From: a virus
IMG/VR virus record: IMGVR_UViG_3300034198_008248
Span: 1-64,000 of that record
DNA length: 64,000 nucleotides
Reading direction: 5' to 3' (one strand)
The translations under genes and the position numbers were made by a program. Below, piece by piece: positions 1,936-55,799 of the stretch. Every line of letters begins with the position of its first letter. Position 1 is the first letter of the stretch. Under the pieces are notes generated by a model. The model was not told where the DNA came from. It did not search any database and saw only the letters and a list, made by a program, of their open reading frames with translations.

Positions 1936-2397
1936 ATGTTAAAGGCGTCTGGAGTTATAAATGTTCAACCACACAAAGGTCGTATGGTTCTTGATGTTTC
2001 TCAAGATCTTGTTGAGCTTTATTATTGGTTTATTCAGCGTAAGTATTGGATCAGAATGAACAGACCAATGCACGGGGCTCATATCACTTTATATTCTCAA
2101 AAATTTAACAAGAAAATCAACTGGGAGAAAGCTATGTATTATCGTGGTAAAACTATCGAGTTTGATTATGATGAGAACATTGTTGAAGGTGGTTATACCA
2201 AGGGATTCTTAATGTATTACCTTAGAGTGTATTCGCAAGAACTAGATAAGATCAAGAAGAAGGTTGAAGTTGTAGATGGTGAAAGATTTAAAGGAATTCA
2301 TTTGACTATAGCGAATGGAAAATTTAATTCAGCTTATCCCAGTTGGCCAAAAACTATCGAAATTAGAGAAAAAAATGCTACCACAATGACTAAATAG
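1936..2397 (+). CDS. 2H phosphoesterase-like protein (altered C-terminus)
   Basis: 153 residues with two HxT/S motifs, HGAHITLYS near residue 48 and GIHLTIANGK near 119, the signature of the 2H (LigT-like) phosphoesterase superfamily, which acts on 2',3'-cyclic phosphates and related RNA ends. The last 15 residues follow the WPKTIEIR segment and run to the TAG just before a GIY-YIG homing endonuclease. A second version of the WPKTIE.R tail lies downstream of the endonuclease at 3381-3425, so the original 3' end was displaced by insertion. RNA-end processing fits the RNA ligase and kinase genes nearby. Confidence 0.65.
   Translation: MLKASGVINVQPHKGRMVLDVSQDLVELYYWFIQRKYWIRMNRPMHGAHITLYSQKFNKKINWEKAMYYRGKTIEFDYDENIVEGGYTKGFLMYYLRVYSQELDKIKKKVEVVDGERFKGIHLTIANGKFNSAYPSWPKTIEIREKNATTMTK
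2389..2396 (+). promoter_or_regulatory. T4-late-like octamer ACTAAATA
   Basis: ACTAAATA followed by 5 nt and the GTG at 2402. The spacing is identical at other late-type starts here and supports GTG as the start of the endonuclease. Confidence 0.6.
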
Positions 2398-2401
2398 TAT
2401 T

Positions 2402-3379
2402 GTGGTATACACATTACAAGATAGGAAAAGTTGGCCAGTTACTACAGGCGTATATAAATTAACATTTATTAATTCAACATCTAATAAAGTTTATATAGGA
2501 AGTTCTGCGAGTATTCGGAAAGGTAGTTATTACGGAATTAGAACTAGATGGGGTAAACACGCTGATTTACTTAAATTGGGAATACATTATTCGAAAAAAT
2601 TACAATATGCTTATAATAAGTATGGCGGAGAAAATCTTACATTCGAAATCATAGATTCTTGCGATGGTGGGAATATAATAGAGATGGAGACGTTTTATAT
2701 TACCAAATACGATAGTTGTAATAATGGTTACAATTCTAGACCCACCGCAGAAAGTAATGTCGGTTATAAAGTCTCCAAGTCTATCATAGAAAAGACAAAT
2801 ATAACAAAAAGAAAGAAAAGGGAACCTTACGAAATCGATGTTCTTAAGCTTTATAAAGAAACCAAAAATGCTTTGGGTGTTTCGAGGGAATTGGGATTGA
2901 GTCATAGTGTAGTTTTAAAAATTTTAAAAGACTACAATATAATTCCAAAAAATGGAGATTATAGGCGGAAAAATGTATACGCATACATGTTGGATGGGTG
3001 TTTTGTGGGAATATGGAAAGATGCTAGGAGTTGTGCTGATGCACTAAATCTTAAAAGTATTTGTAGTATATCTCATGTTGCTATGGGTAAGAATATTTCA
3101 TATAAAGGATATTTCTTTTCATATGAAAAGAAAACCAAAAGAGAGATAGTTGATTATATAAAAACTAGAATATGTGAAAGTAGACAAAAAATGAGCAATC
3201 CAGATAAGTTGATACTTCGCAACATTGGTCAATATGATATGTCAGGGAACTTGATAAAGGTTTGGGAAACTTCAACAGAAATTAAAAAATATTTTAATAT
3301 GTTCAATTTTTCTCCAATATCAGCGGTTTTTGCTGGAACAAAAAAACATTACAAAGGTTTCCTTTGGAAAAAAGAATAA
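2402..3379 (+). CDS. GIY-YIG homing endonuclease
   Basis: 325 residues from a GTG start. An N-terminal GIY-YIG nuclease domain shows GVYKLTF (near 17), KVYIGSS (near 29), an Arg near 42 and the ENLTFEII strand near 76. A helix-turn-helix module follows (ALGVSRELGLSHSVVLK, near 160), then two NUMOD-type DNA-binding repeats (YAYMLDGCFVGIWKDA; QYDMSGNLIKVWETS). This is a standard free-standing phage homing endonuclease. It sits between two versions of the 3' end of the 2H phosphoesterase gene, which marks its insertion site. Confidence 0.93.
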   Translation: MVYTLQDRKSWPVTTGVYKLTFINSTSNKVYIGSSASIRKGSYYGIRTRWGKHADLLKLGIHYSKKLQYAYNKYGGENLTFEIIDSCDGGNIIEMETFYITKYDSCNNGYNSRPTAESNVGYKVSKSIIEKTNITKRKKREPYEIDVLKLYKETKNALGVSRELGLSHSVVLKILKDYNIIPKNGDYRRKNVYAYMLDGCFVGIWKDARSCADALNLKSICSISHVAMGKNISYKGYFFSYEKKTKREIVDYIKTRICESRQKMSNPDKLILRNIGQYDMSGNLIKVWETSTEIKKYFNMFNFSPISAVFAGTKKHYKGFLWKKE

Positions 3380-3380
3380 C

Positions 3381-3425
3381 GGATCAGTATTTCCAGATTG
3401 GCCAAAAACCATAGAATTGCGATAA
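3381..3425 (+). pseudogene. displaced 3' end of the 2H phosphoesterase gene
   Basis: Frame at 3381 encodes GSVFPDWPKTIELR and a stop. This matches the C-terminal AYPSWPKTIEIR of the gene at 1936 but lacks a start. It is best read as the native 3' end left behind when the endonuclease arrived with a diverged flank. Confidence 0.65.
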
Positions 3426-3426
3426 T

Positions 3427-3600
3427 ATGACAGATAAAAAGACTTTACCAGATTTTTCTGAAATAGCGAAAGATATCAGATATTTAGAAGCTGAATCCTT
3501 TTGGATAGCATATTATCAACCTTTAGGTATATCTGTTATAGGTAAAACCAAAGAAGACTCAACGAACGGTTTAGAAAAGGCATATAATTCACATAAATGA
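3427..3600 (+). CDS. hypothetical protein, 57 aa
   Basis: ATG at 3427, two bases after the displaced gene end; TGA overlaps the next ATG at 3597. Starts MTDKKTLPDFSEIAKDI. No domain recognised. Probably co-transcribed with the upstream genes. Confidence 0.6.
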   Translation: MTDKKTLPDFSEIAKDIRYLEAESFWIAYYQPLGISVIGKTKEDSTNGLEKAYNSHK

Positions 3601-18974: not shown

Positions 18975-19775
18975 ATGAAAGACAATTTGGGCGACCGCTG
19001 CAAAAATTACGAAAGTATTTACGAACACTACTTTCTACCAAAGACTCCAATTATTGTGAGACTTGACGGGAAAAGTTTTCATACATGGACTAAGGGTTGT
19101 CAAAGACCATTCGATCAAACATTGATCACTTGTATGTTTGACTCTGCTAAAGAAGTAGCACAACAAATGCAAGGATGTAAAGCTCTGTATGCTCAGAGTG
19201 ATGAAGTAACATTTGTATTAACTGATGATGCTACTATTGACACTCAACAATGGTTTGGTGGTAGACAGAATAAGATTGAAAGTGTTACGGCTGCAATGAT
19301 GACAGCATACTTTAATAAAAATTGGTTGCTTAAAGATCATAGTAATCATGAACATTTTAATCAGTGGGATTATATGGATTCCACACCTGCTGTATTTTAT
19401 GCCCGTGCATTTCAATGTCCTAAAGATGATGTCGCTAATGTCTTCCTATGGAGAGTAAAGAATTGGGAACGTAATAGTCTTAATATGTTCTGTGAGCAGT
19501 TCTTCTCTCATAAGGACCTAGAAGGTAAATGTCGTGTGGAAAGACATGAAATGCTTTATAGAATTGATCACAATTGGGCTATTGAATGCACCGATCAACA
19601 AAAAAATGGTTCATGGTGGGCTTGTGATAAGGTTGATAACTTCAATCTAACTAACTATAATGATATTGATAACTACATCTTCCAAGATGGAATTGCTTAT
19701 GTGATTTCAAAGAAACTACAGGCTGGAGAAGATCTGTTTCCCGGACATAATAACGATCCTTGCCAAGATTATTGA
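18975..19775 (+). CDS. thg1: Thg1-like tRNA 5'-nucleotidyltransferase
   Basis: 266 residues. The N-terminal palm domain shows LPKTPIIVRLDGKSFHTWTK (near 23), whose metal-binding Asp is in RLDG, then LYAQSDEVTFVL (near 70; second Asp/Glu pair) and WFGGRQNKIESV (near 92). These are the diagnostic motifs of Thg1/TLP enzymes, which add nucleotides 3'-5' to tRNA 5' ends: G-1 on tRNA-His in eukaryotes, templated 5' repair in bacterial and mitochondrial relatives. The phage His tRNA at 60213-60287 lacks an encoded G-1, making it a natural substrate. Confidence 0.88.
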   Translation: MKDNLGDRCKNYESIYEHYFLPKTPIIVRLDGKSFHTWTKGCQRPFDQTLITCMFDSAKEVAQQMQGCKALYAQSDEVTFVLTDDATIDTQQWFGGRQNKIESVTAAMMTAYFNKNWLLKDHSNHEHFNQWDYMDSTPAVFYARAFQCPKDDVANVFLWRVKNWERNSLNMFCEQFFSHKDLEGKCRVERHEMLYRIDHNWAIECTDQQKNGSWWACDKVDNFNLTNYNDIDNYIFQDGIAYVISKKLQAGEDLFPGHNNDPCQDY

Positions 19776-42943: not shown

Positions 42944-43020
42944 TCATCATGATTCCCACCGACTCCACCGAAAAGAACGATGCCCTATTGGATGCCTACC
43001 TCGAAAGCAAAGAGCATTAA
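42940..43020 (+). CDS. hypothetical peptide, 26 aa
   Basis: MIIMIPTDSTEKNDALLDAY then LESKEH. ATG overlaps the preceding stop and is placed just after a promoter; TAA is the start of the next promoter. Confidence 0.5.
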   Translation: MIIMIPTDSTEKNDALLDAYLESKEH

Positions 43021-43035
43021 ACACTAGGACAGAAT
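43019..43035 (+). promoter_or_regulatory. AAACACTA promoter
   Basis: AAACACTA, 3 nt, CAGAAT, then 11 nt to ATG 43047. Confidence 0.62.
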
Positions 43036-43046
43036 GAAAGCACGAA

Positions 43047-43103
43047 ATGGTTCATCCTACCAGAAAGGATGCGGGAAGCTCTCGAAAGAAGCAAGTCGAA
43101 TAA
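43047..43103 (+). CDS. hypothetical peptide, 18 aa
   Basis: MVHPTRKDAGSSRKKQVE, between two promoters. Very short and basic; translation is only suggested by the promoter. The TAA overlaps the next promoter. Confidence 0.35.
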   Translation: MVHPTRKDAGSSRKKQVE

Positions 43104-43128: not shown

Positions 43129-43629
43129 ATGCAAACCACCACTACTACCCCTATCGCCGCCCCAACCGCAACTGCTAAGAAGCCCGTTCAATTCACGTTC
43201 GGAATCACAGAAAACCTCAAAAATGAGGCCACTGAACTCCGCAAGGGCTTCACCCGCCCCGCTGCCGTTGCCAAGGCCCCTCCCATCCCTATGTCTGAAA
43301 AAGAGTGCTTTGAGGTGCTTTACAAGGTCGCAACGGATCGCCGCTTCAAAACCGTGCCAGTGATGGAATCGGTCGAAGTCGATGGGGAAGCTGTTGAGGT
43401 GCAAGCCTTGGATGAGGACGGCAACCCTGTTTTCGAAACCAAGGATTTGATCGGGGAGGCATGGGAAGCGATTAAGGTTCGCGACTATTCTGAAACCGTT
43501 AGCAAGACGCCGACCATCGATGGGTTGGTTGCTCAAATTCGTAAGTATGGCGCGGCCCTTGGATTGTCTGAAGATGCGATTGCCGCAATGGTGGCGACTG
43601 CAACCGCCCCCGCAACCGCAGCGGAATAA
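43129..43629 (+). CDS. Ala/Thr-rich protein with unusual base composition
   Basis: 166 residues. Ala/Pro/Thr-rich ends (MQTTTTTPIAAPTATAKKPV and ATATAPATAAE) around a charged core with EKECFEVLYKVATDRRFKTV. Codons favour G and C unlike surrounding genes. A 13-bp hairpin follows. No family recognised; possibly acquired recently or highly expressed. Confidence 0.75.
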   Translation: MQTTTTTPIAAPTATAKKPVQFTFGITENLKNEATELRKGFTRPAAVAKAPPIPMSEKECFEVLYKVATDRRFKTVPVMESVEVDGEAVEVQALDEDGNPVFETKDLIGEAWEAIKVRDYSETVSKTPTIDGLVAQIRKYGAALGLSEDAIAAMVATATAPATAAE

Positions 43630-43644: not shown

Positions 43645-43677
43645 CCGCCCCTTGTCCCTAACCCGGACAAGGGGCGG
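43645..43677 (+). terminator. 13-bp GC-rich hairpin
   Basis: CCGCCCCTTGTCC pairs perfectly with GGACAAGGGGCGG around CTAACCC. Follows the gene at 43129. Confidence 0.7.
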
Positions 43678-43722
43678 CACTTTCGAGAGCTTGGAAGCGA
43701 TTCTAAGAGCTTTCGAAAGTGC
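43677..43722 (+). repeat. inverted repeat GCACTTTCGA...TCGAAAGTGC
   Basis: Perfect 10-bp arms (43677-43686 with 43713-43722) around a 26-nt loop that itself contains AGCTT/AAGAGCT pairing. Directly after the terminator hairpin and before the next promoter. Confidence 0.55.
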
Positions 43723-43733
43723 TTCAGAGGATG

Positions 43734-43750
43734 AAACACTAGAGCAGAAT
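43734..43750 (+). promoter_or_regulatory. AAACACTA promoter driving an RNA
   Basis: AAACACTA, 3 nt, CAGAAT; predicted +1 at 43757 is the first base before a 12-bp closing helix, not an ATG. Confidence 0.6.
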
Positions 43751-43756
43751 GATGAT

Positions 43757-43842
43757 GCCGCTGGGTGGCGATAGTTCACCCGTTCCTTTTTACTCCACTT
43801 GCTAGTCATTGCCAAGGAGAGTGACGAAGCCACCCAGCGGAT
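43757..43842 (+). ncRNA. promoter-driven structured RNA 1
   Basis: Closed by a perfect 12-bp helix CCGCTGGGTGGC (43758-43769) with GCCACCCAGCGG (43829-43840). Inside are CTCC/GGAG and GTCA/TGAC pairings. It starts one base after the predicted transcription start, so a small discrete RNA of about 85 nt is likely. Function unknown. Confidence 0.62.
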
Positions 43843-43843
43843 G

Positions 43844-43860
43844 AAACACTAAGATAGGAT
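43844..43860 (+). promoter_or_regulatory. AAACACTA promoter driving an RNA
   Basis: AAACACTA, 3 nt, TAGGAT; predicted +1 at 43867, no ORF follows. Confidence 0.58.
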
Positions 43861-43866
43861 GTAAGT

Positions 43867-44029
43867 AGCTTAAATGCCTTTTCCGCTCGGTGCGGGTAGC
43901 CCTTGAAGAGGGCTAGGAAAAACATAATCAACCGCCAGCGATTGCAAGCGTGAGGTGGAGATGGGGAATAGCTACCCCCGGACAGATTATGAGGGTTCGA
44001 TTCCCCGCGAGGCCACCCCTTTCCGTTTG
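43867..44029 (+). ncRNA. promoter-driven structured RNA 2 with tRNA-like 3' end
   Basis: TTTTCC/GGAAAA (43879-43884 with 43916-43921) encloses TAGCCC TTGAAGA GGGCTA (43897-43915) and CCGC/GCGG. CCGCC/GGTGG and GGGG/CCCC stems follow, then GGGTTCGATTCCCCG and GAGGCCACC, which resembles a T arm and acceptor end. No ORF. It is neither a standard tRNA nor a recognisable tmRNA. Confidence 0.52.
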
Positions 44030-44046
44030 AAACACTAGAATAGAAT
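44030..44046 (+). promoter_or_regulatory. AAACACTA promoter
   Basis: AAACACTA, 3 nt, TAGAAT; ATG at 44053 at 23 nt. Confidence 0.75.
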
Positions 44047-44052
44047 TCAATC

Positions 44053-44274
44053 ATGTCCACCACATTAACGCCTGATACCGCCGCCTATGTCATCACCAAA
44101 CGCTCCGCGTATCTCAAACGCCAGTGCCTACTAGGGCATGGTGACAGTGAAGAGGAGGCTTTCCATGATGCCTTCGGCCCTAAGCCTTGGAGCCCGCAAC
44201 AAAGGAGGTCCGCCGCTGCCTGCAACGTGCGCAAGGTTGACCAGTTCGAACTCAACGAACTCCTCTGGAGTTGA
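44053..44274 (+). CDS. hypothetical protein, 73 aa
   Basis: MSTTLTPDTAAYVITKRSAY, later GDSEEEAFHDAFGPKPWSPQ and a basic helix. Promoter-defined start. Higher GC than most genes here. No family recognised; last plus-strand gene of the left block. Confidence 0.72.
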   Translation: MSTTLTPDTAAYVITKRSAYLKRQCLLGHGDSEEEAFHDAFGPKPWSPQQRRSAAACNVRKVDQFELNELLWS

Positions 44275-44285
44275 AACACTAGGAA

Positions 44286-44314
44286 GGGGCATCGGTTGTA
44301 ATGATCGATGCCCC
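44286..44314 (+). terminator. 9-bp GC hairpin
   Basis: GGGGCATCG pairs with CGATGCCCC around 11 nt, immediately after a -10-less copy of AAACACTA at 44274. Confidence 0.6.
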
Positions 44315-44315
44315 T

Positions 44316-44347
44316 GCATACTCTAGTGATGAAACACTAGAGTATGC
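44316..44347 (+). repeat. 13-bp inverted repeat containing the promoter core
   Basis: GCATACTCTAGTG pairs perfectly with CACTAGAGTATGC around ATGAAA, so the arm includes AAACACTAGAGTATGC (a promoter-like core with TATGCT). A minus-strand AAACACTA with TACCTA lies at 44365-44381. No gene is read from either. Confidence 0.65.
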
Positions 44348-44400
44348 TTGCGTTAGGAATTGGATAGGTATGCTAGTGTTTTATGGATGGGGAGGGGGCC

Positions 44401-44486
44401 ATAGAAAAATATATTTTTTAATAAATTTTCTCAATTTTCCTGTATAGAAAAATATATTTTTTAATAAATTTTCTCAATTTTCCTGT
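44401..44486 (+). repeat. tandem duplication of a 43-bp AT-rich unit
   Basis: Two perfect consecutive 43-bp copies, 44401-44443 and 44444-44486, each starting ATAGAAAAATATATTTTT. They are followed by A/T runs to about 44540 and lie between the plus-strand block and convergent gene 44576-45226. Confidence 0.92.
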
Positions 44487-44575
44487 ATAGCTTAAAAAAT
44501 TTTTTTGTATTTTTTTTTTCATTTTATATAGGATTTTTTTATTATCCATGATATCGCCACAGCAACGCATTACAT

Positions 44576-45226
44576 TTATTCCAATTCAGTGTTTTTTGAA
44601 GGTGGGGTGTTTTTAAATTCGGTCATATAGCTATCATCTGTGAATTGATGTCGTTTGTTTTCTACGCTATATACGGTTAGATCAATTTTGTAATTGGGAT
44701 TTTTATCGAGTGGAGTATCGACCCATGCATCATCATGCCATATAATTCTATTATTTGGGTAGATATAAAAATTACCATTATCCATTTTAAATAAGTGTCC
44801 ACACTTATGTTCTGGAGTTTCGCTAAAATTCGTATCAATCATTGCTTTATTTTCCCACCCCCAATCGAGAGTCATCATATATTCTCCCCATTTTTTCTCA
44901 TTACTTGGGGTGATAAGTTTCGCTCTTAGGTTTTTCATTCTTGCTCTCACGTTTACATCTATATATGGGCTGAAACAATCCCAATACATTGCTTCCTCTA
45001 AGTTGACAGGTTCACATTCTTTCCAACAAAAAGCGGTAATTGGTCTTCTAGTCCAGTTCACACCATTTGTTAAAAATGCTTCGAATAGGGGAACTCTTTT
45101 TTCCATAGAGGCAACACTATGCACATCACACAGCGAGTATTCACCATGGCCGCTTTCATGATTAAAAAGATATTGATTGCGAATCAGGCAGGTGATTGTT
45201 GGAACGTTGTGATTTAAATAAGGCAT
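44576..45226 (-). CDS. conserved phage hypothetical protein, 216 aa
   Basis: MPYLNHNVPTITCLIRNQYL, HGEYSLCDVHSVASMEKRVP (near 29), NWTRRPITAFCWKECEPVNL (near 55). I recognise this as a conserved protein of large phages, without assigned function. Upstream is a canonical sigma70-like promoter (TTGACT, 16 nt, TATAAT) with ATG 6 nt after the -10 box. Confidence 0.82.
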   Translation of the reverse strand: MPYLNHNVPTITCLIRNQYLFNHESGHGEYSLCDVHSVASMEKRVPLFEAFLTNGVNWTRRPITAFCWKECEPVNLEEAMYWDCFSPYIDVNVRARMKNLRAKLITPSNEKKWGEYMMTLDWGWENKAMIDTNFSETPEHKCGHLFKMDNGNFYIYPNNRIIWHDDAWVDTPLDKNPNYKIDLTVYSVENKRHQFTDDSYMTEFKNTPPSKNTELE

Positions 45227-47846: not shown

Positions 47847-49376
47847 ATGATCCCATTCAAAAAATTCTTCTTCGAATCAGTCAATAATAATCTAGATGAC
47901 TTTTCAGAGAAATGGAATAAGGCTATCTCATCTTCTGAAGAACTCCGAGTAGCCTTGAATCTGATGAACAAGATTGTTGATCTGTTTCCTTCTGGAGAGA
48001 TTTATATTGTTGGTGGTGTTCCTCGTGACCTTATTATGGGTAACGAGATCGATGATGTTGATATGGCAACTAATATCCCCTTCGAGGATTTGTCTCAACA
48101 TTTTGAGTTGCGTAATATATCAAAGAATGATTCTCAACCAGTTTATACTATCCTATATAACAACTATGCTTATGACTTAGCTAAATTTAGGGAAGATTCT
48201 CAAACTGAAATGGGAAGACAGAGTAATGTTTCTGTAGAGGTTGATAGTTTTGAAACGGATACCAAACGTAGGGATATTACTATCAATAGTTTTGGTCTTG
48301 ATCATCGTGGTAGGATTGTAGATTATCAGGGTGGTTTACAGGATCTTCAGAATAAATTAATTCGTGCAGTTGGTAATCCTAGAGAGAGGTTTAAGGAGGA
48401 TGCTACCCGTTTGCTTCGTGTCTTCAGATTCGCAGCTAAGATGGACTTTGATATTGAGCCAGAGACTCTACAAGCTGCTAAAGAATTGAAGCACTTGTTA
48501 CAAGATTCTTCTCTGATTTCTATGGAGAGTATTTCTCAAGAAATGTTTAAAGCAGCCAAATCAGGAAGAACTCTATCAAACTTTTTAAGTAAGCTTACTG
48601 AAGCTGGAATATTACAAGATATTCTTCCAGAGTTTCATGCGATGGATGGAATGATGCATAATCCGAAATATCATCCAGAAGGGGAGAGTAAAGTTCTTGG
48701 TCACATTCACGAATGCTTAAAAGTTTCACCTTATAGTGATCCTGTGATTAACTTAGCTGTTCTTTTCCACGACTTTGGAAAAGCTACAACTAGAGGTGAA
48801 AAGAATGGACATTCTACATATTATGGTCATGAAGCTGCTGGTGTTCCTATTGTTGAGGGAATCTTCAAAAGAATGAGATTCGCTAAACTAGGACCGAATG
48901 ATAAAAAGAACATTCTTGATGCTGTAGCTAAACATATGATGGTTCATAATCTAGATACACTCAATATAAAGACTCTCAGAAAATTGATTCATGATCCTTC
49001 ATGGGAGACTGTTAAGGCTGTGGCATATTGTGATGAAGCTTCTCGTGGTCCCGGTCTATTTGATAAACAAGAGTTTATGGATAAGATTGAGAGAGCAGAA
49101 GCTAAACTAAACACAGTTCCGGGAGGTGCTGATGCTCTGAAAAAACAAATAGCTCAGTATGCTAATGGTAATAAAATGATGCAATGGTTTCCACAATTCA
49201 AAACAAACCCCAAACAGATCGGTATGTATTTACCCAAATTACAAGATTGGGTGGCTGAGATGTTATTAAGTGGTAGAGAAATCTCAGAGCAGGATGTTCT
49301 CAAGAAGGCTAAACAAATGATTCCTTCCAATCATCTCATTAACCCTATTAGTTTTTTTACTCGATCACTAACATAA
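47847..49376 (+). CDS. cca: CCA-adding enzyme / poly(A) polymerase family
   Basis: 509 residues. Class II nucleotidyltransferase head IYIVGGVPRDLIMGNEIDDV (near 52) with the DVDM metal-binding Asp pair, then TKRRDITINSFGLDHRGRIV (near 138) and ERFKEDATRLLRVFRFAAKM (near 180). An HD domain follows (LFHDFGKATTRGEKNGHSTY near 310, GHEAAG). The family rebuilds the CCA end of tRNAs. Many tRNAs in this window lack encoded CCA, so a phage tRNA-maturation role is likely. The leader MIPFKKFFFESVNN resembles capsid-targeting peptides. Confidence 0.9.
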   Translation: MIPFKKFFFESVNNNLDDFSEKWNKAISSSEELRVALNLMNKIVDLFPSGEIYIVGGVPRDLIMGNEIDDVDMATNIPFEDLSQHFELRNISKNDSQPVYTILYNNYAYDLAKFREDSQTEMGRQSNVSVEVDSFETDTKRRDITINSFGLDHRGRIVDYQGGLQDLQNKLIRAVGNPRERFKEDATRLLRVFRFAAKMDFDIEPETLQAAKELKHLLQDSSLISMESISQEMFKAAKSGRTLSNFLSKLTEAGILQDILPEFHAMDGMMHNPKYHPEGESKVLGHIHECLKVSPYSDPVINLAVLFHDFGKATTRGEKNGHSTYYGHEAAGVPIVEGIFKRMRFAKLGPNDKKNILDAVAKHMMVHNLDTLNIKTLRKLIHDPSWETVKAVAYCDEASRGPGLFDKQEFMDKIERAEAKLNTVPGGADALKKQIAQYANGNKMMQWFPQFKTNPKQIGMYLPKLQDWVAEMLLSGREISEQDVLKKAKQMIPSNHLINPISFFTRSLT

Positions 49377-53509: not shown

Positions 53510-53898
53510 AAAGAGATCCCCTAGATAAAACAGAATTTATGAAGTCAGTTCGTCAAATATGGAGTGCCATCTTTATTGGTTGCGCATTTACTGTATTATT
53601 TGTAAACTTATACATGGGTGCTCAATTCGACCCAACTCCGTATATGCAGTTTTTCTTAGCAATTGGATCACTCTTTATTCTAGGAGCATCTGGTGATTCT
53701 TGGGTTAAGGCTTATAGTGTGAAATCTATTAGAGAAACAGAAGTTCAAGAAGAGACTAAAAGACTCACATCAGTTACAATAGACGAAACAATAGTAAATA
53801 AAGATATCGTATTGGAGTATGTAAATAAATATTCAAATGATCCAAGTTATGCTCCTTTATCTTGGGTAGAGAAAACAGAACAACCAGAATTCAGATGA
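53506..53898 (+). CDS. holin-like membrane protein
   Basis: 130 residues with two TM helices (IWSAIFIGCAFTVLFVNLYM and MQFFLAIGSLFILGASG) and a charged soluble tail. Location directly before the endolysin, with a 4-nt overlap, supports a holin role, but no sequence family is recognised. Confidence 0.6.
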   Translation: MKRDPLDKTEFMKSVRQIWSAIFIGCAFTVLFVNLYMGAQFDPTPYMQFFLAIGSLFILGASGDSWVKAYSVKSIRETEVQEETKRLTSVTIDETIVNKDIVLEYVNKYSNDPSYAPLSWVEKTEQPEFR

Positions 53899-55799
53899 AA
53901 GAAAAATTAGCACAAAAGATATTAAAAGACTCTGGTTTCTACACCGAAACTATTGATGGTGATTTTGGTAAAAAAAGTAAAGAAGCTGCTTTCAAATATT
54001 ACAATTTTCCAACTACTTGGAATGGTGAAAAATTAGTTACTGGTGTAATTCAAGTAGCTGCTGTGAGATCTAATATAAACATTGGAAATATTGATGGTCT
54101 TTGGGGTAACATGACTCAATCAGCTTATGAACAATTGCTTAAAAAAGATAGCCTACATGTTAAGAAACCTGATGTATCTCAATCTGTAGATGTAAAAAAA
54201 CATTATAATGATTGGCCTAAGCAAGATTATAATAGTATGGTGAAGTTTTATGGTGCTGTCGGGACAAACCAAACAACTTTACAATTACCATATGAAATGC
54301 TTTTAGCTTGGGATTTAGATTCTAAGGTTTCTAAAATCACTTGTCATGAAAAGGTTCATGATTCTCTACAAAGAATATTCAAAAATACTTTAGATCACTA
54401 TGGTATTGATGCAATAAAAGAACTAAGACTTAATCGATTCGGTGGTGTGTTGAATGTGAGAAAAATGCGCGGTGGATCTTCATGGAGTAAGCATTGTTTA
54501 CCGAAAGGTTCTCCGGTGTGGACACCAAAAGGTATTGTTCCTATCGAAAATATATCCATCGGTGATTATGTTTATTCATTCGAATCTGGAAATTTGGTCA
54601 CAAAAAAGGTTAAAAATTTCTTCGAGAATGGGAAAAAACCGCTAGTAAAAGTCGTGGTTTGTGGTGGAGATATTGACTGTTCGCCGGAACATAAAATTTT
54701 AGTTTTGAAAAAGAAGACATTAGAACCGACAGAATATATACAACACAAAAACAAAAACGGTCAAATAAGAGCCAAATATTGGACAGAGATGGTGGAAGCT
54801 AAAGATATAATTAAGGGGGATAAAATAGTTTTCCTTAAAAAATCAATAGTTGATGGAGATATTAACTGGGATTCTTGGTATGAAATTCTAGGCATGTTTA
54901 TAGGTGATGGGTGTATTCATCATCGAAAAGGATCGCCATCATACATGTCTATACAGATTCCAAAAAGTGATAGAATCAGAAAACACGCGGAAAAATTATT
55001 TGATAATTATTTTGGTTCTGAGAACATTAAAAAGAATGAAAAACAGTTCATTATAAACAAAAGAGATATATGGGAAAGGTTTTTACCATATAATAAAAAA
55101 TCTTTCGATAAAGATATTCCCACCGAAGTTTGGTCATCAACTATCGATCAGCAACGATCATTTATTAGAGGTTATTTATACACGGATGGGTGTATAATAA
55201 AATCGAGTAGGGCGGTTAAACATTCTTTCAAATGTGCCTCGTATAATTTAATGCTAAATCTTCGACTTTTGCTATCTCTCCATGGATTCAGAAATTCGAA
55301 ATTGGATAAGAGGAACGGTGGGGAGACTGAAATATGTGGAGTTAAGTGTAATAGGCGAGACGGGTGGATGTTTACTTCGGTCGATACTAATAATATATTT
55401 ACATGTGTTGAGGACATAATGTATTTCGATAGGGTGAAAGATTCTAAACATAATAAGGGAACATCTCACTGTATGGGATATGAGGAATTATTTCCAGATT
55501 TTATCTACAAAAGTGTCAAAGATGTGAAATATCTCGAAAAAGGACTTGTGGACGTTTTTGATATCGAAGTCGAAGATACCCATAATTTTATTGTGGATGG
55601 TATGGTTGTATCAAACTCCTGGGGTGCTGCTGTGGATATTGATCCAGATAGAAATCAATTGAAATGGGGTAAAGATAAAGCATTTTTAGCTAGACCTGAA
55701 TACGAACCATTTTGGAAGATTGTCGAAGCAGAGGGTTGGACTAGCTTAGGTAAAGCTAGGAATATAGACTTTATGCATTTTCAAGCCGCTAACCTTTAA
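53895..55799 (+). CDS. M15 peptidase endolysin interrupted by an intein
   Basis: 634 residues from ATG 53895. Residues 1-90 form a peptidoglycan-binding-like region (LKDSGFYTETIDGDFGKKSK). The host domain resumes as a D-Ala-D-Ala carboxypeptidase/M15 fold: SWSKH before and SWGAAVDIDPD after an insert, together SKH-SWGAAVDID with the zinc ligands His and Asp. The insert (about residues 201-574) begins CLPKGSPVWTPKGIVPI and ends HNFIVDGMVVSN, with LAGLIDADG-type blocks LGMFIGDGCI and RGYLYTDGCI. Splicing should restore an active lysin; +1 residue is Ser. Confidence 0.93.
   Translation: MKEKLAQKILKDSGFYTETIDGDFGKKSKEAAFKYYNFPTTWNGEKLVTGVIQVAAVRSNINIGNIDGLWGNMTQSAYEQLLKKDSLHVKKPDVSQSVDVKKHYNDWPKQDYNSMVKFYGAVGTNQTTLQLPYEMLLAWDLDSKVSKITCHEKVHDSLQRIFKNTLDHYGIDAIKELRLNRFGGVLNVRKMRGGSSWSKHCLPKGSPVWTPKGIVPIENISIGDYVYSFESGNLVTKKVKNFFENGKKPLVKVVVCGGDIDCSPEHKILVLKKKTLEPTEYIQHKNKNGQIRAKYWTEMVEAKDIIKGDKIVFLKKSIVDGDINWDSWYEILGMFIGDGCIHHRKGSPSYMSIQIPKSDRIRKHAEKLFDNYFGSENIKKNEKQFIINKRDIWERFLPYNKKSFDKDIPTEVWSSTIDQQRSFIRGYLYTDGCIIKSSRAVKHSFKCASYNLMLNLRLLLSLHGFRNSKLDKRNGGETEICGVKCNRRDGWMFTSVDTNNIFTCVEDIMYFDRVKDSKHNKGTSHCMGYEELFPDFIYKSVKDVKYLEKGLVDVFDIEVEDTHNFIVDGMVVSNSWGAAVDIDPDRNQLKWGKDKAFLARPEYEPFWKIVEAEGWTSLGKARNIDFMHFQAANL
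54496..55616 (+). mobile_element. intein with LAGLIDADG endonuclease
   Basis: Covers Cys1 (after SWSKH) to the terminal Asn (VVSN). Block A CLPKGSPVWTP, block B-like GGDIDCSPEHKILVL, blocks C/E LGMFIGDGCI and RGYLYTDGCI, blocks F/G DVFDIEVEDTHNFIVDG and VVSN. It sits in the active site of the lysin, the conserved position typical of inteins. Confidence 0.88.

Follow-up and report, generated by a model that had tools for sequence, protein, structure and literature searches.

At the end of its early region, a T4-like phage carries two copies of the promoter-like motif that precedes its genes (43734 and 43844), yet no gene follows either. What might they transcribe? The DNA analysed here (hereafter the window) is a 64,000-nucleotide stretch taken from a virus record that spans 124,257 bases at 35% GC. 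A preliminary description proposed two small RNAs (hereafter RNA1 and RNA2), and this claim divides on analysis: RNA1 holds, its helix being paired in a diverged relative, whereas RNA2 has an ordinary fold and no relative among the loci searched. Feature coordinates are collected in Table 1.

Outside the window the record encodes proteins of T4 type: a DNA polymerase (phrog_262, E 6.9e-181), helicases, an SbcC-like subunit and the major head protein (phrog_138). Across the 10,498 bases compared, the window's record has a 100% identical twin in a 202-kb contig (IMGVR_UViG_3300032281_000616), which therefore provides no independent information. L006 is a diverged phage, its helicase being 77% identical to that of the window. 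The window also encodes a tRNA nucleotidyltransferase-like protein (47847-49376) and a protein with intein splicing and LAGLIDADG domains (53862-55799), and the phage carries several tRNA genes.

A promoter-like motif and its two geneless copies

Most early genes of the window are preceded by the motif AAACACTA-N3-TAKAAT, for which a pattern scan found 60 sites on both strands together, between 1230 and 44348. Counting ATG, GTG or TTG codons that open a frame of at least 15 codons, the start codon lies exactly 6 nt past the hexamer at 42 of the 60 sites, at another spacing at 10 and is missing at 8; under a stricter count (ATG, at least 30 codons) the 6-nt spacing is found at 41 of the 60. With an ordinary distance from -10 to +1, a 6-nt gap means that messages would begin at the start codon itself. 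The motif probably acts as a promoter, and the early mRNAs of this phage clade appear to be leaderless. The hexamer is TATAAT-like up to about 36 kb and TAGAAT from 36 to 44 kb.

The motif is common to one clade of T4-like phages and near relatives lack it. Exact matches number 60 in the record of L006, 44 in that of L008, 50 in that of L154 and 35 in that of L155, and in the sequence pieces examined the exact 6-nt spacing holds at 24/36, 18/22, 21/29 and 14/17 sites, respectively; the records of L007 (one match) and L009 (none) nearly or wholly lack it. A search of six records for the single-subunit phage RNA polymerase (PF00940) gave no match and is uninformative, as control genomes gave none either. 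Literature searches with the letters of the motif returned unrelated papers only, among the matches listed.

Both copies reported at 43734 and 43844 are present, and the predicted transcription of RNA1 from a gene-type promoter is supported by the position of the motif in the window and in L006. The start of RNA1 had been placed exactly at the base of a perfect 12-bp helix. The pairing is indeed perfect, but the predicted +1 falls one base earlier in the window and three bases ahead of the helix in L006 (at 19045), so the placement is close rather than exact; the motif ends 7 nt before the helix in the window and 9 nt in L006. Likewise, the locus had been described as free of open reading frames, and neither motif is followed by an ATG frame of at least 30 codons, although a frame of 16-18 codons overlaps RNA1. 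The region had also been called GC-richer than the rest, which is correct (RNA1 0.566 and RNA2 0.552 vs. 0.346 for positions 1-42000) but not specific to the RNAs; high GC was rejected as a sign of RNA, as the adjoining protein genes are equally rich (0.547 and 0.563).

Table 1. Features of the RNA1 and RNA2 locus in the window.
Feature	Position	Strand	Basis or remark
RNA1 motif, AAACACTAGAGCAGAAT (AAACACTA-N3-CAGAAT)	43734..43750	+	Motif scan
RNA1, predicted +1 to end of 12-bp helix	43757..43840	+	Fold, alignment, model R1
12-bp helix, 5' arm, CCGCTGGGTGGC	43758..43769	+	Inverted repeat, covariation
Alternative early hairpin UGGGUG/CACCCG, then T/C-rich tract	43762..43782	+	Excludes 12-bp helix; likewise in L006
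Conserved internal loop, 5' side, GAYAGU	43770..43775	+	Alignment with L006
4-bp helix UCAC/GUGA, 5' arm	43776..43779	+	Invariant, hence silent on covariation
Conserved pyrimidine-rich strand CCRUUCCUYUUUA	43780..43792	+	Unpaired in R1 structure; RNAalifold pairs part
Third helix (4 bp), 5' arm, MUCC	43793..43796	+	One compensatory pair
Third helix, 3' arm	43816..43819	+	Covariation
4-bp helix UCAC/GUGA, 3' arm	43821..43824	+	Invariant
Conserved internal loop, 3' side, CGAR	43825..43828	+	Alignment with L006
12-bp helix, 3' arm, GCCACCCAGCGG	43829..43840	+	Inverted repeat, covariation
Motif ahead of RNA2 stretch, AAACACTAAGATAGGAT	43844..43860	+	Motif scan
RNA2 stretch, noncoding (RNA unsupported)	43867..44029	+	Fold, shuffles, relatives
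T-loop-like 13-mer, GGGTTCGATTCCC	43993..44005	+	tmRNA model positions 349-361
Motif of next gene (ORF 44053-44274)	44030..44046	+	Motif scan

Structure and distribution of RNA1

In the window RNA1 folds with a z-score of -4.32, and none of 200 shuffles folds as well. Perfect 12-bp inverted repeats (spacer 3-90) occur three times between 42800 and 44400 against a shuffled mean of 0.008, so the 12-bp helix of RNA1 exceeds chance; the other two GC-rich 12-bp repeats of the window are compact hairpins. No Rfam 15 family reaches its gathering cut-off for RNA1, and a terminator scan found no terminator-like site past the 12-bp helix.

RNA1 recurs in L006, where it (19048-19130; fold z -2.71) stands behind the same motif at the same place, downstream of a gene for the same protein (52% identity). 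The two copies align without gaps over 83 nt each. All 20 pairs of the named structure form in both phages, and 7 of these are changed on both sides (six in the 12-bp helix and one in the third helix) with none broken. Sliding the partner strand leaves only 0 or 1 two-sided changes, and 4 of 500 shuffles match the observed covariation value. Unpaired helices in relatives had been named as grounds for abandoning the proposal; in L006 the 12-bp helix is fully paired despite the two-sided changes. The covariation is that of two distinct sequences, the window and L006, and the place of TGGGTG differs by one base from one to the other; this displacement, together with corresponding shifts in the opposite arm, would account for several of the seven changes in fewer steps, so that the independent events number fewer than seven. 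It is nevertheless highly probable that RNA1 is a real structured RNA.

Within the 12-bp helix lies a 6-by-4 internal loop conserved in both phages, and the innermost part of the molecule is a variable hairpin loop. RNAalifold confirms the 12-bp helix and draws the interior partly differently. The interior (alignment columns 13-39 and 64-71) is better conserved than the helix arms, and it includes the conserved GAYAGUUCACCC, whose terminal CACCC has an alternative partner in the GGGUG of the 5' helix arm. When successive prefixes of RNA1 are folded, the early hairpin appears first (-9.5 kcal/mol in the window and -10.0 in L006) and the 12-bp helix forms once its 3' arm is complete, the final folds reaching -37.7 and -36.7. 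RNA1 may therefore fold in two steps, as modelled by this procedure.

How widespread is RNA1? An RNA model built for the searches (R1) was run on 21 whole virus records and matched three, namely the window's record, its identical twin and the record of L006 (3 of 7 records in one set and 0 of 14 in the other). The model found no RNA1 in the other motif-rich records searched, those of L008, L154 and L155, and on three syntenic stretches searched without filters the best match was a compact hairpin of 16.7 bits. L008 lacks the whole stretch corresponding to ~43,680-44,330 of the window, and neither RNA is present there. No further member was found by R1 among 20 loci, among 79 loci plus the window or among 40 loci, nor in 75 loci of another set of 80 (of the other five, L006-L009 are covered among the 20 loci and L005 is the window's twin). 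Pattern scans of IMG/VR yielded no new RNA1 among 13 stretches (two of them from known phages), at least 120 stretches and 3 stretches (two known), and a scan of one genome per species gave two stretches, neither of which is an RNA1. Its absence from the motif-rich relatives L008, L154 and L155 indicates that RNA1 is dispensable in the clade; the locus is variable, and RNA1 is accessory to it.

Three outside candidates were rejected. The best, L158 (22.3 bits; E 0.33, or 0.006 when searched alone), was judged a chance match; it falls inside an ORF on the minus strand (2083-3480) that looks, from its sequence, like a terminase large subunit. L152 (18.3 bits) and L153 match the pattern that picked them.

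Possible roles of RNA1

The reading favoured here, to which we give slightly better than an even chance, is that RNA1 is a genuine structured noncoding RNA of ~84 nt, transcribed from a gene-type promoter where the early region ends and acting in trans as an accessory. The clade's gene-type promoter would transcribe it; a short hairpin would form ahead of the T/C-rich tract, and would then be dissolved as the 12-bp helix forms, both steps as suggested by prefix folding. The 12-bp helix would protect the ends of the RNA, leaving the internal loop and pyrimidine-rich strand as the putative surface to which a partner, either an RNA or a protein, would bind, and through which RNA1 would work in trans early in infection. 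Action in trans, again held with only a small balance in its favour, is suggested by what lies downstream: the RNA2 stretch in the window and an ORF in L006, each with its own motif. As the units that follow RNA1 differ between the phages in this way, a free-standing RNA is favoured over a cis-acting leader.

The principal rival is nonetheless such a leader or attenuator, in which the early hairpin would end some transcripts at ~35 nt and read-through would be regulated. The hairpin and its tract score as terminator-like in both the window and L006, and within the helix arm it is TGGGTG that keeps its letters in spite of its displacement, as would be expected if it also had to pair with the nearby CACCC. 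Yet a C interrupts the T tract, terminator-like matches arise by chance in the regions scanned (shuffled means of 1.7 for the window region and 0.4 for that of L006), and the downstream units with their own motifs are not the same in the two phages. Moreover, the tract has already been transcribed by the time the 12-bp helix forms, which leaves the helix no usual way to prevent termination there. We consider this reading doubtful.

Could the inverted repeat instead be a DNA element, or a passive stabiliser or spacer of mRNA like the stem-loops with promoters reported for T4-type phages, and so lack any function as an RNA in itself? Hairpins are common nearby (43645-43677 and 43677-43722, z -6.4 and -6.1), the region is hypervariable and L008 lacks both RNAs, but the interior of RNA1 is more conserved than its arms, which a bare stem would not need, and this explanation is improbable. 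Still harder to credit is a specific form of action in trans, in which CCRUUCCUYUUUA, whose complement contains AGGAA, would be exposed after the 12-bp helix has dissolved the early hairpin and would pair with Shine-Dalgarno-like sites of the host and lower host translation while the leaderless-looking phage messages escape. Least credible is a tiny leaderless peptide of 16-18 codons starting at an ATG at 43749, 43752 or 43755: ATG codons lie directly past the hexamer and short frames start at other sites of the motif, but these starts are off the usual 6-nt spacing, no reading frame is conserved in RNA1 and in L006 the window's frame has no start and meets a stop at columns 34-36, which makes a peptide unlikely.

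Phage-encoded small RNAs are already known as a kind, and RNA1 would add to that kind. For T4-type phages, Arbiol and colleagues reportedly described in 2010 cassettes that combine a stem-loop with an early promoter and lie between small genes where the genome is hypervariable. RNA1 shares with these the combination of hairpins and early promoters among small genes of a hypervariable region, and differs in lying downstream of its promoter, in its length of 83 nt and in its conserved interior. It resembles DicF and other regulatory sRNAs of phages and prophages in being short, noncoding and phage-encoded; unlike them, RNA1 is predicted from sequence, and it matches no Rfam family. T4 itself encodes RNAC and RNAD, small RNAs whose role is given as not known in a 2010 T4 review (PMC3014915). 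The same review notes that functional characterization had not been achieved for any small trans-acting regulatory RNA of T4, and expresses the hope that related genomes would supply candidate RNAs (PMC3014915). RNA1, too, would be a small RNA of a T4-type phage, likened to RNAC and RNAD by their description, but whereas those lie in the T4 tRNA region RNA1 follows a motif of early type and is located where the early genes end. No description of RNA1 was found in the literature searched or in Rfam. It is a candidate small trans-acting phage RNA whose promoter, length and structure are defined and which is directly testable, in a clade whose apparent reliance on leaderless early genes provides an unusual setting.

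The RNA2 stretch and neighbouring noncoding elements

The second motif copy was thought to drive a multi-stem RNA ending in a tRNA-like 3' segment, again with +1 exactly at its base. The fold does not bear this out: RNA2 has a z-score of -0.59, with 50 of 200 shuffles folding equally well or better, three sub-segments reach only -1.08 to -1.35 and no stable stem begins at 43867. Copies of the same virus aside, no relative was found among 231 loci.

The tRNA-like segment reduces to the T-loop-like 13-mer. RNA2 gave no match to the tRNA family (RF00005) at E values up to 10 and no default ARAGORN call, and the tmRNA model matches 13 of 374 positions (10.9 bits against a cut-off of 47). Identification as a tRNA, an intron-bearing tRNA or a tmRNA was rejected, since permissive ARAGORN calls overlap and contradict one another and Rfam gives none; a tmRNA would further need two tRNA-like halves and a tag frame, which RNA2 does not display. 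A group I intron, a split tRNA and a permuted tmRNA, considered by eye, are unsupported.

That RNA2 derives from a tRNA, as a broken or otherwise unusual gene, is possible, if rather less than probable. Eight GGTTCGANTCC sites occur in the window, six within ARAGORN or Rfam tRNA calls, one (36299) in a permissive ARAGORN call only, and the eighth in RNA2 (43994); from these proportions, one may fairly guess that RNA2 holds a fragment derived from a tRNA. By eye, RNA2 also contains an anticodon-arm-like hairpin, AGCCC-UUGAAGA-GGGCU. Against this, its T stem is only 3 bp, and inspection by eye found no matching 5' acceptor strand.

Several other noncoding elements lie close by. The two strong hairpins at 43645-43722 follow ORF 43129-43629 and are found at the corresponding place in L006, the first of them also in L008. 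L006 has a strongly folded noncoding stretch at 19556-19668 (z -3.95) that the window lacks; its fold resembles a four-way junction and is closed by 7 bp. A conserved noncoding element at 44350-44580 of the window contains AT-rich 43-nt direct repeats as well as GTTAGGAATTGG ... GGCCATAGAAAAATA and is present in L006 and L008 and partly in L229 and L230. It could be a replication origin; the GC skew has no exact switch there. Finally, a short element at 43018-43100 (AAATGGTTCATCC...GGATGCGGGAAGCTCTCGAAAGAAGCAA) stands behind a motif copy and may be either a tiny ORF or an RNA, and L229 carries a close match to it on the minus strand, near 1694-1610.
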